Of a DNA stretch of 64,000 bases, positions 41,697 to 49,528 are shown in pieces (position 1 is the stretch's first letter; each line of letters starts with the position of its first letter). The DNA is from Parahoeflea alexandrii. Lineage in GTDB: Bacteria > Pseudomonadota > Alphaproteobacteria > Rhizobiales > Rhizobiaceae. A program made the position numbers and the translations under genes. The stretch is from contig NZ_JAPWHB010000002.1 in assembly GCF_027214025.1 (NCBI RefSeq), positions 558,001-622,000 on the forward strand, written 5' to 3'. The notes under the pieces are model-generated. The model saw nothing but the letters and a program-made list of their open reading frames with translations. It had not been told where the DNA came from and searched no databases.

Positions 41697-43022
41697 TCAG
41701 CCTAGGGAAACCCCTTGGTCGTAGCCCAGGCGGGTGGCGATCTGCACCAGATGCGCCATGGTTCCGGCTTCCGTCTTGTGCAGCAGATTCGTCCGGTGGA
41801 ACTCGACCGTCTTCGGACTGATGCCGAGCGCACCGGCGATCGCACGGGTCTGCTTGCCGTTGCAGATCAGCTCCAGGATCTCGCGCTCGCGGCTCGTCAG
41901 GCTCTTCATCCGCTCTTCGTATTGCCGGAATTCGGCGGGCGTCTCAGCCTCCGCCTGGCCGGCCCCGCTGGCAGCCGGCTCTCCGCGGCGCCGCGCGTAG
42001 AGCCCGGCGCCGGTCAGGCCCAGCGCCATCAGCGCGGCCACGACCGCCAGCCAGCCGGAAGACGATCCCGCTTCGGTGGTCCCGGCGGCCAGCGTCACAC
42101 GCTCCTGGTATCGTCCAACCAGCTTGCGCGTGGTCTCGTAGGACAGCGGCGCCGACCACAAATCGCGCAGGCCATAGGCCGAGGCAATCGCTTGATCCTG
42201 GCTCCGCAGCAAGGCAATGAGCACGGTCTCGCGCAGGTGCTTGTCGACCTTCCGCAGCGCCGCGAACGGCCATTCGGAAAACAGCGGGCCGCTGACCCGG
42301 TAGGGAAAACCGCGATGATCCTGCGCGTTGAGCACGCGGAAATCCTCGAGCCTGATCTGCCCGTCGCCGGCGAGAGTTTCCAGAAGACCGGCGCGGATGA
42401 CGCCGGCGTCAACCTCCCCGCGCGCCACCGCAGCCACGATCTCGTCATGCGGAAAGCCCATGAAACGCAGCGATGCAAGGTCGCGGAACGCGTCGACGCC
42501 CTGTGTCTGCATCTGGCTCCAGGCGACCTGGAAGCCGCCGAAAGCGTCGGGGCTGACCGCCGCCAGCTTCCTGCCCTTCAGGTCGTTGAGCGAGGCCACC
42601 GGGCTGTCCTTCGCGACGATGATCGCGGTGCCGAACCGCGACAGGTGCGAGTTGGAAATCTCCGCCCAGCGCTCCCGCGTCGCAATGGCGCTCAAGTCAT
42701 GGCGGGCGGCGAGCGCGACATAGTGGCCGGGATTGGTGATCAGGAAGTCAAGCCGGTCGGCCTCGATCTCGCTTTCCACCGACGACAGCGACACCGGGAT
42801 GAGCTCGAACCGCCAGCCCTCGACGCTGTCGCCGAGATAGGCCGCAAGCGATCGCCACTCAGCAAGCGCGGCGGCGTTGCCGCGATAGGCCAGCACGCCG
42901 ATATGCGCCGTCCGCGGCGCTGCGGCATCGTCGCCGGCGCTTGGCCGCGCACGGCCATCGCCAGCTGCGAGCAAGCCGCACAGCATGACCAGTACGCCGG
43001 TGAAGCGTTTCGGAAAATGCAA
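41697..43022 (-). CDS. membrane-anchored regulator: PhnD-like sensor, TM helix, LuxR HTH
   Basis: 441 residues. N-terminal signal/anchor (about 1-25), a periplasmic-binding-like PhnD domain (HIGVLAYRGNAAALAEW, DRLDFLITNPGHYVALAA, LKGRKLAAVSPDAFGGFQVAW), one TM helix near 323-345 and a cytoplasmic LuxR helix-turn-helix at about 375-435 (LTSREREILELICNGKQTRAIA, GISPKTVEFHRTNLL). There is no kinase or receiver domain, so it should carry a signal from periplasm to DNA in one chain. The PhnD-like fold resembles the sensor of TtrS-type kinases. Start is TTG at 43022 with GGAGGAGAAGGATC; an ATG at 42986 is possible. Confidence 0.87.
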   Translation of the reverse strand: MHFPKRFTGVLVMLCGLLAAGDGRARPSAGDDAAAPRTAHIGVLAYRGNAAALAEWRSLAAYLGDSVEGWRFELIPVSLSSVESEIEADRLDFLITNPGHYVALAARHDLSAIATRERWAEISNSHLSRFGTAIIVAKDSPVASLNDLKGRKLAAVSPDAFGGFQVAWSQMQTQGVDAFRDLASLRFMGFPHDEIVAAVARGEVDAGVIRAGLLETLAGDGQIRLEDFRVLNAQDHRGFPYRVSGPLFSEWPFAALRKVDKHLRETVLIALLRSQDQAIASAYGLRDLWSAPLSYETTRKLVGRYQERVTLAAGTTEAGSSSGWLAVVAALMALGLTGAGLYARRRGEPAASGAGQAEAETPAEFRQYEERMKSLTSREREILELICNGKQTRAIAGALGISPKTVEFHRTNLLHKTEAGTMAHLVQIATRLGYDQGVSLG

Positions 43023-43260
43023 GATCCTTCTCCTCCCAAGAGCATCCTACATATGCAACCCGATGAATACCATTGCCCTCAGGCCAAAGGCAACGCCGCC
43101 CCGCCCGGTGCGGGCCTTGGCGGGGTACGTCCTGGCGGTCCGGCATCCGGTTGAAACGTCAGGCGCCGCGCATCCGGCTGGACACGCGGCGCGTGAGCGT
43201 CATTTGCATGAGCTTCGACCCCGGAGGTTGGCGATGCCGGGCAATGCCGGCCGTCCCCGG

Positions 43261-44613
43261 TCAGTCCAGCGGCAGTCTTTCCAGGAGTTTCAGACCGGCC
43301 AGCACCTTTTCCGAGGCCGCGTTGACCTTGTCGATCTCGTTCAGCGCGCCCTTGACGTTGCCCGAGTTGAACTGCCGCGCGGCCTCGATGCCGTGATGGT
43401 GGACATCGGCGTGGGGCGCCTCGAGTGCGATGAAATGGCTGTTGGAGCCAAGCGCCGTGTGGCGCAGGCTGTCATACCATTTGCCCAGGCGGCAATCGTG
43501 ATGGTTGGACAATTCGTTCGCCTTCAGCCCTTCCCGGCCGATGATCATGTTGGCCAGCCGCCGCTTCCAGATCACGTGGTCCGACTGCGCCAGCTTGACG
43601 ATCTTGCCCGGGAAATTCGCCTTGCCGAGATAAAGCAGGCGGGAGTTGATGCCTGCCTGGGCGTCGCCCATGCAGTCAACCAGGTCTTCCAGCTGCTCCA
43701 GCGAATCGCCGGAACTCATGGCAACGGTCCCAATGCCGCTGGCCACGCTCTGCGACGCTTCCTTCTGCTGCTCCAGCGCCACCGCGATATGGTCCGCATT
43801 GGCGATCACGTCGCTGAGTTCGCGGGATGCATTGGCAAGCGCCGTACGCAGATTGGCAAGCGCCGTATCGCCGTTCTGCGCCGAGGCCCGGCTCGAGTCC
43901 ATGGCGCTGACCATGCCGGTCAGACCGCTGTGCAGCCGGGTGACGATATCGCCGATTTCCTGGGTCGCGATCGCGGTCCGGTCGGACAGCGCCTTGACCT
44001 CGGCGGCGATCACCGCGAAGCCGCGCCCCGCCTCGCCGGCGCGCGCCGCTTCCACCGCCGCGTTGATCGCCAGGATATTGGTTTGCGAGGCGATCTTCCT
44101 GATGTCGGCTGCAATCGCCGAGATATTGGTGCCCAGTTCCTCGACAACGCTGATTCCCGCACTGGTTTCGACCAGTGCATGATTGATGGTCGCCATGCTC
44201 TTGGAGGTCTCGGTCAGTGCGTCTTCGCTGATGCTGCTGGCTTCATTGGCGCGCCGGACATTGTTTCTGATCTCCTCGCCATGCTGCGCAACCTCGTTCA
44301 CCGTGGCGGCCATCTCCTCGGCCGCCGCAGCGATTCCCTGCGCCTCGCCATCGATGTGCCTGAGGTCGTAGAGCAGCTTGGCCGACATCGCCGCCGTCTC
44401 GTTGACGCTGATCGAGGTCTTGACCACATCGTCAAGTTCTGCTGTCGAGCGATCGCGGCAGCGGCGGATGAGCGCGGCGATCGCCTGCGACAGTTCATCC
44501 GTCCCCTTTGGCTCGTGGGTGAAATCGTCATTGGTCGCCGATCGGATGCAATCGAGCAGGTCGTCCGTTTCCGAACCATGCGACTGAACACTGACACTTG
44601 CTGGAAGCCCCAC
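43261..44613 (-). CDS. soluble chemoreceptor with C-terminal CZB zinc-binding domain
   Basis: 450 residues, no membrane segment. The middle is an MCP signalling domain ([41 protein letters not shown]). The C-terminal ~120 residues form a CZB domain: [27 protein letters not shown] and [12 protein letters not shown], giving the conserved His-Cys-His zinc set. CZB receptors sense zinc or hypochlorous acid in the cytoplasm. I chose the GTG at 44613, with AGGAG 6 nt upstream, over a TTG at 44661. Confidence 0.9.
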
Positions 44614-44804
44614 TATCAACTCCTGAAAATATGCCCCGCACGTCGGGCCGGTTCCGCTCAATATGTAGATGTTTTTAGTTAGAGTTTATTAATCAAGACT
44701 TAGCGGAGCCGGCGCTGGCGGCGCCGCTGCAGCTTTTTTTTGCAGCTCTCGCGGAGTGGCGTTTTCCGGTGCCGGCGGAGGACGCCCGGTCTGCCCGGCG
44801 ACGC

Positions 44805-45731
44805 TCAGGCGTCGATAATCGCGCCGAGCCGGAGCACCAGCTTGCGGTCGAACTGCCTGTCGCGCTCGAACATCCACCCGAGCGCCTTGCCGGGACTCCA
44901 GCCCTGCTTGTAGGGCCGGATCGATGTCAGCGCATCGAAGACATCGCAGACGGTGGCAATCCGCACCAGCTGGCTGATTTCGGACCCGGCCAGCCGCGAT
45001 GGATAGCCGCTGCCGTCGAGTGCCTCATGATGATGCAGGCAGATGTCCAGCACCTCATCGGGGATGGCAGGATGCGCCTTGAGGATCTGGTGCCCGCGCC
45101 TTGGGTGGCTCTTGATCGCGGACCGCTCGGAAGCCGTCAGCGCGCCCTGTTTCTGCAGGATCCCGGTCGCAATCGTCAGCTTGCCGACGTCGTGCAGCAA
45201 ACCGCCGACGATCAGCAGCTCGACCGTCTCCACATCGAGGTCCAGCGCATCGCCGAGCTTTCCCATCAGGATACTGACCGCCAGCGAATGCTGGAACGTG
45301 GTTTCATCCTTGTGCTTGAGCCGGGTGACTTCGAAGAAGAACGACGACGTCTGTTGATCGGCCTGGGTGATCTCTTCGACCACCGGCTTGATGCTTGCCA
45401 TATCGAAGAGGTCACCGGTGACAAGGCCGATGAGTTCGGCCTTGAGGATCCTTGTCGAGCGCGCCACCGTGGCGGCGGCCTCGGCCCGCGCCTCAGCCGG
45501 CGAGAGCGGCAGGTTCGCCCTGCCCCTGTCCGGCAGCCGCGCGCCGTTACCGCCAACAGCGCCCAATGTCGTGTTGATGAGCACAAACTCGGCCGGGCTT
45601 TTAAGGATGGCGCTGAGTTCCCGATCTGAATCGAGAAAGAATCGGCGTTTGCCGAATGCAACTTCGGAACACTCCACCGCTTCGACGAACATGCCTCTTT
45701 TGATCTCAGTCTTGGGAATGCGCGTGAGCAT
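44805..45731 (-). CDS. HD-GYP domain cyclic-di-GMP phosphodiesterase
   Basis: 308 residues. The N-terminal ~120 residues (TRIPKTEIKRGMFVEAVECS, RRFFLDSD) match DUF3391. The HD-GYP domain has FQHSLAVSILM, LLHDVGKLTIATGILQKQG, SHPRRGHQIL, CLHHHEALDGSGYPSRLAG and TVCDVFDALTSIRPY, with all metal-binding His/Asp residues. It should hydrolyse c-di-GMP and so favour motility. It lies upstream of, and in line with, the CZB chemoreceptor. Confidence 0.93.
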   Translation of the reverse strand: MLTRIPKTEIKRGMFVEAVECSEVAFGKRRFFLDSDRELSAILKSPAEFVLINTTLGAVGGNGARLPDRGRANLPLSPAEARAEAAATVARSTRILKAELIGLVTGDLFDMASIKPVVEEITQADQQTSSFFFEVTRLKHKDETTFQHSLAVSILMGKLGDALDLDVETVELLIVGGLLHDVGKLTIATGILQKQGALTASERSAIKSHPRRGHQILKAHPAIPDEVLDICLHHHEALDGSGYPSRLAGSEISQLVRIATVCDVFDALTSIRPYKQGWSPGKALGWMFERDRQFDRKLVLRLGAIIDA

Positions 45732-46053: not shown

Positions 46054-46467
46054 ATGTTACAGCGCCACATCTGCATAGTCGACGATGACAAGGACGACAT
46101 ATTCCTGATGTCGGCCTCATTGAAGCGGCTGGAAAGCAAGACCACAATTCGTTTCAAGATGAGCGCGTTCTACAGTGCCGAAGATGCTTTCTCGTTCTTC
46201 AGCAATCCGGCAATCGACCTGCAAGACCTGCCCGACTGCATATGTCTCGACATCAACATGCCCGGCACCAACGGTCTCCAGCTTCTCAGGATGCTTCGCC
46301 AGATGAGCCATCTGATGGAGATTCCGATCTACATCGTCAGCACAACCAAAAACCAGAATACGCACCAGGAAGCCGTTTCATCCGGAGCGAATGGAACTTA
46401 CGCCAAACCCGACACGATGCTGGGCATGCAAACTTTGCAACGACAATTGCTGGGGATACCAGACTAA
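46054..46467 (+). CDS. single-domain response regulator
   Basis: A 137-residue CheY-like receiver: acidic pocket at 10-12 (CIVDDDKDD), phospho-acceptor Asp at about 66 (CLDINMPGTNG), Ser/Thr in IYIVSTTKN and Lys in TYAKPDT. No output domain. It lies 13 bp upstream of the ethylene-receptor-like kinase, so it is probably its partner. No clear ribosome-binding site precedes the ATG. Confidence 0.9.
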   Translation: MLQRHICIVDDDKDDIFLMSASLKRLESKTTIRFKMSAFYSAEDAFSFFSNPAIDLQDLPDCICLDINMPGTNGLQLLRMLRQMSHLMEIPIYIVSTTKNQNTHQEAVSSGANGTYAKPDTMLGMQTLQRQLLGIPD

Positions 46468-46480
46468 CGGAGTTTTCTCG

Positions 46481-47713
46481 ATGTTGAACAAGGTATTGTT
46501 GTACTTTGAGACGAACTCGTTTCTCGCGCATGGATATTGCCTGACCTGGCGGACCGACCTGATCGCACTGCATGCGATCTCCGATCTCCTGATCTTTGCG
46601 TCCTATTTTGTCATTCCGACTGCCATCATCTATCTCTTCGTCAAGCGGCCCGATCTGCTTCCCCAGCGGGTTGCGGTCCTGTTCTCGGCTTTCATCTGTG
46701 CTTGCGGCCTTACCCACCTGATCGGCCTGATTACCCTTTGGCAGCCGATTTACGGCTTCGAGGGCATCATCAAGGCCGGCACGGCGGTGATCTCCGGGGC
46801 GACAGCGGTCGCCAGCTGGATGCTGATACCCACCGCGCTGAAACTGCCAAGCAGCGTCACGCTGAGCGAGAAGAACAACGCTCTCAGCCATTCAATCCGT
46901 GAACAAAGCCGCGCCTACGAGGAACTCGATCTGATCAAGTCGCAACTCGAGTTGCGCATTCAGGAGCGCACCCGCGAATTGCAGGACAAGGCCGAGGCGC
47001 TGGAGCGGGTCAATGCCAGCCTCTCGCAATACGCCCATTTCGCCTCCCATGACCTTCAGGAGCCGTTGCGGAAGATCGTTTCCTTCTCCGAGCTGGCACT
47101 GGATGAAGGCAAAGCCGGCGGTCCGGAACTCGGCCAGTATCTCGAAACGATCAGGAAATCGGCGAGCCGGGCCAGAAACCTCGTACGAAACCTCCTTCAC
47201 CATGCCGAGTTGGACCGCTACCAACCCGATCTCCAGGAGATTTCGTTGAAACACGAAACCGGGCGGGCGCTGGAAACCCTCGAGCTTCCCATCAACGATC
47301 GCGAATGCGAAGTGCATATCAACGTTCCCGACATCACCATCCGCGCCGATCCGACACTCGTTTTGCAGATCCTGCAGAACCTGATCAGCAACTCCATCAA
47401 GTACACGCCGGCCGACCGCAAGCCGGTGGTATCAATTACAGCGGAAGCAGAGGGCTCCGTAATCAAATACGTCATCCGGGACGACGGCATCGGCTTCGAC
47501 CCGGTCTACAGGGATCGCATTTTCGAACCGTTCGCGCGGCTGAACACCGGCGGTGAGTTTTCCGGCAACGGCATGGGGTTGGCCATCGTCGCCAAGGCGG
47601 CCGCCCTCCTCGGCTGGGATATATCCGTGGAGAGCGCCCCGATGCAGGGCACCAGCTTCAGGATAGGCATTCCCGCCGATCTCAAGGTGGTCAATGGAGG
47701 ACTGGGGGAATGA
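46481..47713 (+). CDS. ethylene-receptor-like (ETR1-type) histidine kinase
   Basis: 410 residues. The N-terminal three-helix membrane domain carries ISDLLIFASYFVIP and FICACGLTHLIGL. Asp35, Tyr42, Ile45, Pro46, Ile72, Cys75 and His79 have exactly the spacing of Asp25, Tyr32, Ile35, Pro36, Ile62, Cys65 and His69 of plant ETR1, which bind copper and ethylene. A coiled coil (about 135-180) leads to the kinase: FASHDLQEPLRK with His190, N-box LISNSIKYT, G1 DDGIGF, G2 GNGMGLAI. There is no GAF domain, unlike plant and cyanobacterial forms. It is flanked by two response regulators. Ethylene binding is inferred. Confidence 0.9.
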   Translation: MLNKVLLYFETNSFLAHGYCLTWRTDLIALHAISDLLIFASYFVIPTAIIYLFVKRPDLLPQRVAVLFSAFICACGLTHLIGLITLWQPIYGFEGIIKAGTAVISGATAVASWMLIPTALKLPSSVTLSEKNNALSHSIREQSRAYEELDLIKSQLELRIQERTRELQDKAEALERVNASLSQYAHFASHDLQEPLRKIVSFSELALDEGKAGGPELGQYLETIRKSASRARNLVRNLLHHAELDRYQPDLQEISLKHETGRALETLELPINDRECEVHINVPDITIRADPTLVLQILQNLISNSIKYTPADRKPVVSITAEAEGSVIKYVIRDDGIGFDPVYRDRIFEPFARLNTGGEFSGNGMGLAIVAKAAALLGWDISVESAPMQGTSFRIGIPADLKVVNGGLGE

Positions 47714-48072
47714 AGGACGTGCTGCTTATCGACGACGACATCATGGAACAGAAGCTCATGCATGTGTTCCTGACGCGCCGTTATGACGAAGACTTCGAAC
47801 TGACATATGTCGACAATCTCGACGCAGGGCTCAAGGCTCTGGATGACGCCGAATTCGATGTGGTATTCATCGACCACTACCTGCCGCCCTACAAGGGCGC
47901 ACACGAAACCTACCCGCTGATCTCCGGCCACGTCCGCAAGGCAAGCCTGATCTATATATCGTCCGGCTTCACACCGGTCGACCGGTTTCCGGCAGACAAG
48001 AATCTCGGTTTCAGCTTCATCGACAAGTTTGACATCAAGGACCGTATCATGAACGGCCTGCTCGACAGCTGA
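47710..48072 (+). CDS. single-domain response regulator downstream of the ETR1-like kinase
   Basis: A 120-residue receiver: LLIDDDIMEQ acidic pocket, phospho-acceptor Asp55 (VVFIDHYLPP), Ser in IYISSGF, Lys106 in FIDKFDIK. No output domain. ATGA overlap with the kinase shows coupling. Its sequence departs from typical CheY proteins and resembles the short receivers encoded next to phytochrome-type kinases. Confidence 0.88.
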   Translation: MKDVLLIDDDIMEQKLMHVFLTRRYDEDFELTYVDNLDAGLKALDDAEFDVVFIDHYLPPYKGAHETYPLISGHVRKASLIYISSGFTPVDRFPADKNLGFSFIDKFDIKDRIMNGLLDS

Positions 48073-48165: not shown

Positions 48166-49380
48166 TCAGAAAAACGCCTGGATGCCGGTTTGCGCCCGGC
48201 CGAGGATCAGCGCGTGGACGTCGTGCGTGCCCTCGTAGGTGTTGACGGTTTCCAAGTTCTGCGCATGGCGCATGACGTGGTATTCGGCCTGGATGCCGTT
48301 GCCGCCGTGCATGTCGCGCGCCATGCGGGCGATGTCGAGCGCCTTGCCGCAATTGTTGCGCTTGACGATCGAGATCATTTCCGGCGCGAAGCGGCCCTCG
48401 TCCATCAGCCGCCCGACGCGAAGCGAGCCCTGAAGCCCGAGCGCAATCTCGGTCTGCATGTCGGCGAGCTTCTTCTGGAACAGCTGCGTGCCGGCCAGCG
48501 GCTTGCCGAACTGGTGCCGGTCAAGACCGTACTGCCGCGCCCGGTGCCAGCAGTCTTCCGCTGCCCCCATCGCGCCCCAGGAAATGCCGTAGCGGGCCCG
48601 GTTAAGGCAGCCGAACGGACCCTTCAGGCCCGAGACGTTCGGCAGCAACGCCTCTTCCGACACTTCCACATTGTCCATCACGATCTCGCCGGTGATCGAG
48701 GCGCGAAGCGAGAGCTTGCCGCCGATCTTCGGCGCCGACAGCCCCTTCATGCCCTTTTCCAGCACGAAGCCGCGGATCTCGTTGCCATGCGCTTCCGACT
48801 TGGCCCAGACGACGAAGACATCGGCGATCGGCGCGTTGGAAATCCACATTTTGGAGCCGTTCAGCACGTAGCCTCCGTCAACCTTCTTGGCGCGGGTCTT
48901 CATGCCGCCCGGGTCGGAGCCCGCATCCGGCTCGGTCAGGCCGAAGCAGCCGACCCATTCGCCGCTGGCGAGCTTCGGCAGATACTTCATCCGCTGTTCC
49001 TCGCTGCCATAGGCCTGGATCGGGTACATCACCAGAGATGACTGGACACTCATCATCGAGCGGTACCCCGAATCGATCCGCTCGACCTCGCGCGCCACCA
49101 GTCCGTAGGACACGTAGCCGGCTTCCGCGCCGCCATACTGCTCGGGAACCGTGACGCCGAGCAGGCCGGCCTCACCCATTTCCGAGAAGATCTCGCGGTC
49201 GGTGACCTCGTTGAGATAGGCGTCGGTCACCCGCGGCATCAGCTTGTCGGCGGCGAAAGCCCTGGCCGCGTCCGCAATCATCCGCTCTTCTTCGGTCAGC
49301 TGATCATTGATCAGGAACGGATCGTCCCATTGAAAAGATGATTTCGCGGACTTGATCGAAACGGCGGGGGACACGGACAT
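48166..49380 (-). CDS. gcdH: glutaryl-CoA dehydrogenase
   Basis: A 404-residue acyl-CoA dehydrogenase. [21 protein letters not shown] and [15 protein letters not shown] bind FAD; the end, [19 protein letters not shown], contains the catalytic Glu and is the GcdH pattern. It oxidises and decarboxylates glutaryl-CoA to crotonyl-CoA in lysine and aromatic breakdown. ATG at 49380 with GGAGTTTTTGAG upstream. It is a plausible metabolic neighbour of the aromatic genes but stands alone. Confidence 0.94.
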
Positions 49381-49528
49381 CTCAAAAACTCCAGTTTGTT
49401 CCAGTCGGGACACATGTCGACCCCGGCAAGGGGCACATTGCAGCATATAGTCCTCTTTAACACGGATTAAACGAGATACTATAGGCTTAAAATATATTTC
49501 GTGGGCGACGCTGCTCCGGAGCGCACGC

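Follow-up and report, generated by a model that had tools for sequence, protein, structure and literature searches.

The window, the whole stretch of 64,000 nucleotides from Parahoeflea alexandrii that was analysed, carries a three-gene module which we predict, with a probability of roughly three in four, to be a bacterial ethylene-receptor two-component system, in which an ethylene-regulated histidine kinase has as its main partner the receiver encoded directly upstream of it. The module is real and probably functional, and would belong with the known bacterial ethylene receptors, its wiring being modestly unusual. That such receptors occur in bacteria was already known; what is new is a Hoeflea member with this slightly unusual wiring, its distribution and its genomic site, which extend functional-looking ethylene receptors to Hoeflea.

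Organisation of the module

All three genes lie on the forward strand. A single-domain response regulator of 137 aa (46054-46467; Pfam Response_reg, E 1.5e-15), here called the upstream receiver, is separated by 13 bp from the gene of the 410 aa kinase (46481-47713). The start codon of the downstream receiver, a single-domain receiver-like protein of 120 aa that is read here as an accessory partner (47710-48072), overlaps the kinase stop codon in the sequence ATGA. Gene order, coordinates, gap and overlap are all as first described in a sequence-only reading of this DNA. The frames are open in the window, and binding and catalytic motifs are kept.

The module lies between two genes on the reverse strand. 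The divergent neighbour encodes an HD-GYP-type protein (44805-45731; Pfam HD_5, E 2.1e-29, and DUF3391, E 2.5e-07), which is counted here as a neighbour only; together with genes for a CZB-domain chemoreceptor and a LuxR-type protein it occupies positions 41697-45731. The convergent neighbour (48166-49446) is a putative acyl-CoA dehydrogenase gene, named from reading of its sequence, and is an anchor for the genomic site, outside the circuit.

The membrane domain is of the ethylene-binding type

The profile search that had been proposed as a check assigned the membrane domain of the kinase (residues 27-122, 46559-46846, forward strand) to Pfam ETR1_N, and not elsewhere, with E 5.6e-32. The domain holds D35, Y42, I45, P46, I72, C75 and H79, the pattern reported by the sequence-only reading, and these are all seven residues that AtETR1 needs for ethylene binding; K98 is also present. 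Y42, I45, P46 and I72 carry their position numbers in ETR1. Chance is ruled out as the source of the spacing, because the profile scores 110.3 bits against a cut-off of 27. One match was returned at E 0.001 when the organism's own genome was searched with the domain.

The family has three transmembrane helices; in the window kinase, hydropathy has maxima at residues 28-55 and 64-82 and a weaker one at 97-121. A structure model of low confidence (mean pLDDT 60.6, three sequences) places helices at 25-55, 57-86 and 89-119, followed by a long helix at 125-209 that carries H190. Among solved structures, none matched this domain even at E values as high as 1.

Among plasmids, Azospirillum brasilense Sp7 was seen to encode a relative of 525 aa (L067, 3001-4578), whose gene overlaps a receiver frame that comes after it. 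This protein was identified as AzoEtr1, since its strain and length and the overlap with a receiver match the description in PMC11819568. From residue 1, 66 of 140 positions (47%) are identical between the two proteins without internal gaps, all seven residues are shared, and the D35, C75, H79 and K98 that PMC11819568 gives for AzoEtr1 stand at the same numbers in the window kinase. AzoEtr1 residues 1-130 bind ethylene saturably, as stated in that paper. Ethylene sensing by the kinase is thus a prediction well supported by homology, on the profile match, the seven residues and the identity to AzoEtr1; that much of the original proposal stands, and the plant or algal source of ethylene that it added is a guess.

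The residues are also common among relatives, as all seven were found in 45 of 64 aligned ETR1_N domains. This alignment comprised the window and 63 of 70 loci, from which L034, L061 and L062 had been dropped because tblastn with the window domain found nothing in them, and L001, L025, L064 and L065 as duplicates. The kinase of one other Hoeflea carrier, G003, has F in place of Y42. In three ETR1_N proteins, at L030, L031 and L033, most of these positions are changed (DCTAMTH, HYISMYH and NCIAFRN), and the ligand is perhaps another one. At L008, L012, L016 and L032 there are ETR1_N frames of 138-184 aa without a kinase, which could be small membrane proteins or truncated genes.

Kinase core and linker

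Behind a linker of approximately 60 residues without PAS or GAF, the protein has the parts of a HisKA histidine kinase, namely HisKA at residues 182-244 (E 7.6e-10) with the phospho-accepting H190, and HATPase_c at 290-399 (E 1.1e-23) with N304 in the N-box. In receptors of the plant and cyanobacterial type, plant ETR1 included, a GAF domain separates the membrane domain from the kinase part; the window kinase has none, as had been noticed from the sequence, since Pfam at E up to 1 found only ETR1_N, HisKA and HATPase_c and neither PAS nor GAF. Photosensory domains were likewise not found at E up to 1. Bacteriophytochromes are defined by a PAS-GAF-PHY photosensory module, so the kinase is not one of them and the likeness is limited to the core and the receiver.

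Of the solved structures, the histidine kinase 8f71 is nearest to the core (E 1.9e-35), with bacteriophytochromes next (E 8.6e-27 to 1.2e-24) and other kinases such as 4jas (1.4e-23) not far off. A 'phytochrome-type' label for the core would therefore be a weak one, as 8f71 is the best match and 4jas is nearly as close as the bacteriophytochromes. The H-box reads HDLQEPLR and places D191 at H+1, E194 at H+4 and R197 at H+7. In PMC8292422, kinase activity is linked with an acidic residue at H+1 and Asn in the N-box, and the phosphatase activity of DrBphP with Glu at H+4 and Arg at H+7. Kinase activity is accordingly predicted as likely from D191 and N304, which the window kinase shares with Agp1. 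E194 and R197, as in DrBphP, suggest that the core may also act as a phosphatase, but this step is uncertain, because Glu added at H+4 of Agp1 gave no net phosphatase activity and the conservation of H+4 Glu and H+7 Arg is lost where H+1 is acidic (both from PMC8292422).

The two receivers

The upstream receiver has the motifs VDDD (9-12), D66 (LDINMPG), VSTT (95-98) and K118 (AKPD). Its closest solved relative is 6xvu (E 2.3e-10), which PMC8292422 names as DrRR, the bacteriophytochrome regulator; a bacteriophytochrome-receiver fusion, 8avv (4.7e-09), and PleD (2.8e-07) follow. DrBphP and DrRR thus resemble the present pair in the receiver, in the H+4 and H+7 residues and in a related core, and differ, like Agp1 with AtRR1, in that the input of the window kinase is an ETR1_N membrane domain. 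The downstream receiver has IDDD at 7-10, D55 (FIDHYLPP) and K106 (IDKFD), and is a weak match to Pfam Response_reg (E 3.1e-06; 27.7 bits, below the cut-off of 30.2); no solved structure in the PDB matched it at E 0.01. By length and by Pfam, neither receiver has an output domain.

The kinase was found in six of 18 Hoeflea genomes, the organism's own included. Exactly these six have the upstream receiver, which lies directly 5' of the kinase in every one, although for neighbouring genes such joint presence is to some extent trivial. Only three carriers (G000, G003 and G005) have the downstream receiver at the module, and beside the kinase in the other three, and beside a related kinase on a Rhizobium plasmid, no match to it was found. 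The constant unit is the upstream receiver with the kinase, as the contrast of 6/6 with 3/6 demonstrates, and the downstream receiver was rejected as a constant partner. The three-gene circuit originally proposed therefore holds for the window and two other Hoeflea genomes and not for the remaining carriers. Relatives of the downstream receiver, at 33-38% identity, occur in four Hoeflea genomes without the module; the sole one inspected, in G002, adjoins a different kinase-like gene, of PAS type by reading, that runs on the opposite strand. The second receiver, present in half of the carriers, offers a natural comparison for its role.

Distribution and genomic site

The kinases of the other five Hoeflea carriers are 63-64% identical to that of the window over nearly their full length. 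With the whole kinase at E 1e-60, matches came from 4 of 394 sampled genomes of the family, all four Hoeflea, and a scan of contigs gave two loci with relatives, in Hoeflea sp. BAL378 and Hoeflea olei. Rhizobium sp. 32-5/1, whose source is a Vicia cracca root nodule, has a further copy on a plasmid, at 68% identity. Matches to the upstream receiver are there split over two frames (L066, 3597-3982). In the domain tree this copy groups with the window sequence, and both fall among those of Hoeflea (supports 0.95 and 0.88), but in the full-length tree its partner is G003, with a support of only 57%. A transposase-like frame, IS110-type by reading, is present on the same plasmid approximately 1 kb upstream of the receiver (L066, 1597-2640).

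A relative of the acyl-CoA dehydrogenase gene, at 89-100% identity, occurs in 18/18 Hoeflea genomes. The stretch beyond it was surveyed in 10 of the 12 genomes without the module (G008 and G012 being the other two). In five (G001, G010, G009, G006 and G004) the HD-GYP gene follows directly, and in the other five neither this gene nor the module was found within approximately 8 kb. In G001 the dehydrogenase and HD-GYP genes are approximately 0.28 kb apart, and beyond the latter are chemoreceptor and LuxR-type genes as in the window, where the module intervenes. Among the carriers, the module adjoins the dehydrogenase gene in G003, G011 and G013, with no HD-GYP match beyond it; the two are approximately 2.4 kb apart in G005 and are on different contigs in G007. 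Based on this survey and the dehydrogenase gene tree, the pattern fits a module that has long resided at a single site and was lost more than once, with independent gain as the alternative.

Proposed mechanism and alternative readings

Binding of ethylene by the membrane domain most likely involves a copper ion on C75 and H79, as inferred from AzoEtr1 and ETR1, and the helical linker would relay the change to the core with no PAS or GAF domain between. The core should be kinase-competent (H190, Asp at H+1, N304) and perhaps also acts as a phosphatase, with the DrRR-like upstream receiver as its main partner. Net phosphorylation probably falls in the presence of ethylene, if AtETR1 and, less directly, SynEtr1 are taken as a guide: PMC11819568 gives the kinase activity of AtETR1 as inhibited by ethylene and the evidence for SynEtr1 as indirect. 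The downstream receiver is probably a second acceptor or a phosphate sink. As neither receiver has an output domain, output would run through protein contacts and perhaps affect attachment or metabolism, as with AzoEtr1. More tentatively, an ETR1_N domain may have been set directly on a bacteriophytochrome-like kinase/phosphatase core, with a DrRR-like receiver taken over and, in some Hoeflea only, the other receiver serving as a phosphate sink that can be tuned, to form a minimal gas-sensing circuit; we regard this more specific account as possible rather than probable.

It is unlikely that the domain keeps its copper site but has a natural signal other than ethylene, for instance copper itself, oxygen, a change in redox state or a different small alkene. 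The three relatives without most of the seven residues do suggest that ligands may vary in the family, and no ethylene context is known for this organism, but the window kinase keeps all seven and its characterised relative at 47% identity binds ethylene. A reversal of roles, in which the downstream receiver is the genuine output partner of the kinase and the upstream one the sink, is given a similarly low chance. Coupling to the kinase by the ATGA overlap is in its favour, as is the AzoEtr1 gene, which also overlaps a downstream receiver gene. Against this, the downstream receiver has no match beside the kinase in half of the Hoeflea carriers or in the Rhizobium plasmid copy, and its distant relatives occur in four genomes that lack the module, the G002 one by another kinase-like gene.

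The least probable of the readings considered, and very unlikely in our view, is that of a mere passenger, in decay or without function. Its patchy presence in 6/18 Hoeflea genomes, the empty site in relatives and the two-frame receiver of the Rhizobium plasmid copy would be expected of one; however, the frames of the window are open, with binding and catalytic motifs intact, and the other five Hoeflea kinases are conserved at 63-64% identity and nearly full length. An ethylene-regulated kinase paired with the upstream receiver is the preferred reading. As a compact natural receptor without a second sensor domain, the protein could serve to measure how ethylene alters the kinase and phosphatase activities when no PAS or GAF input interferes.

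With regard to ecology, Hoeflea is named in papers on algal microbiota among the matches listed. Nothing was found in the papers searched that joins Hoeflea with 'ethylene receptor', and for marine ethylene sensing the titles among the matches listed were all off subject. ACC deaminase was not found in the genome (0/1), and as the control genomes over the cut-off were also 0/14, this result has no positive control.

Spread of the domain and comparison with known systems

Sampling of the class gave ETR1_N in 28 of 385 genomes, and sampling of the phylum, at E 0.001, in 29 of 398 (28 over the cut-off), in both cases with 0/14 control genomes; among 72,556 plasmid records, 18 have a match to the window domain. 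It is thus not limited to 'a few proteobacteria' as first suggested, and PMC7700396 already describes proteins of this kind in many proteobacteria, their outputs ranging from the simple to the complex. GAF was found at E 0.001 in none of the 38 complete ETR1_N proteins scanned, and any single PAS-type profile matched at most 8 of these. The scan covered 41 complete relatives minus the four short frames at L008, L012, L016 and L032, plus the window; a further 22 relatives, mostly long, are cut at locus ends and fall outside it, so that the scan has too few long proteins, and GAF may occur among those 22. The lack of a GAF domain was accordingly rejected as a special trait. Given this, the frequency of ETR1_N in the class and the AzoEtr1 gene, which likewise overlaps its receiver gene, the sequence-only reading had overstated the novelty of the module.

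AzoEtr1 and AzoRR(etr1) are similar to the module in that the gene of a downstream single-domain receiver overlaps that of the kinase. AzoEtr1 differs in its length of 525 aa with a PAS domain (PMC11819568), whereas the window kinase has 410 aa without one, in its core, which is 24% identical in the aligned piece, and in its H-box (HEMSQP); at its locus the receiver profile finds a downstream receiver only. SynEtr1 (Slr1212) of Synechocystis and plant ETR1, compared by description, share the combination of an N-terminal ethylene-binding domain with a histidine kinase, but SynEtr1 has a GAF domain (PMC7700396). As given in PMC11819568, SynEtr1 signals to Slr1213 and the plant receptors mainly to a Ser/Thr kinase.

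Short ETR1_N kinases near receiver genes are also found on Novosphingobium sp. ES2-1 plasmid p2 (L068, 384 aa) and Blastomonas sp. RAC04 pBSY18_2 (L070, 381 aa), but they are only approximately 28% identical over the kinase, and Blastomonas differs further in having two receivers on the opposite strand. On the Blastomonas plasmid, the source of which is an algal phycosphere, the kinase faces these two response regulator genes (L070, 2113-4095). On the Novosphingobium plasmid, typed as conjugative, the kinase and a response regulator are near an annotated type II Cas9 gene (L068, 1-4462).
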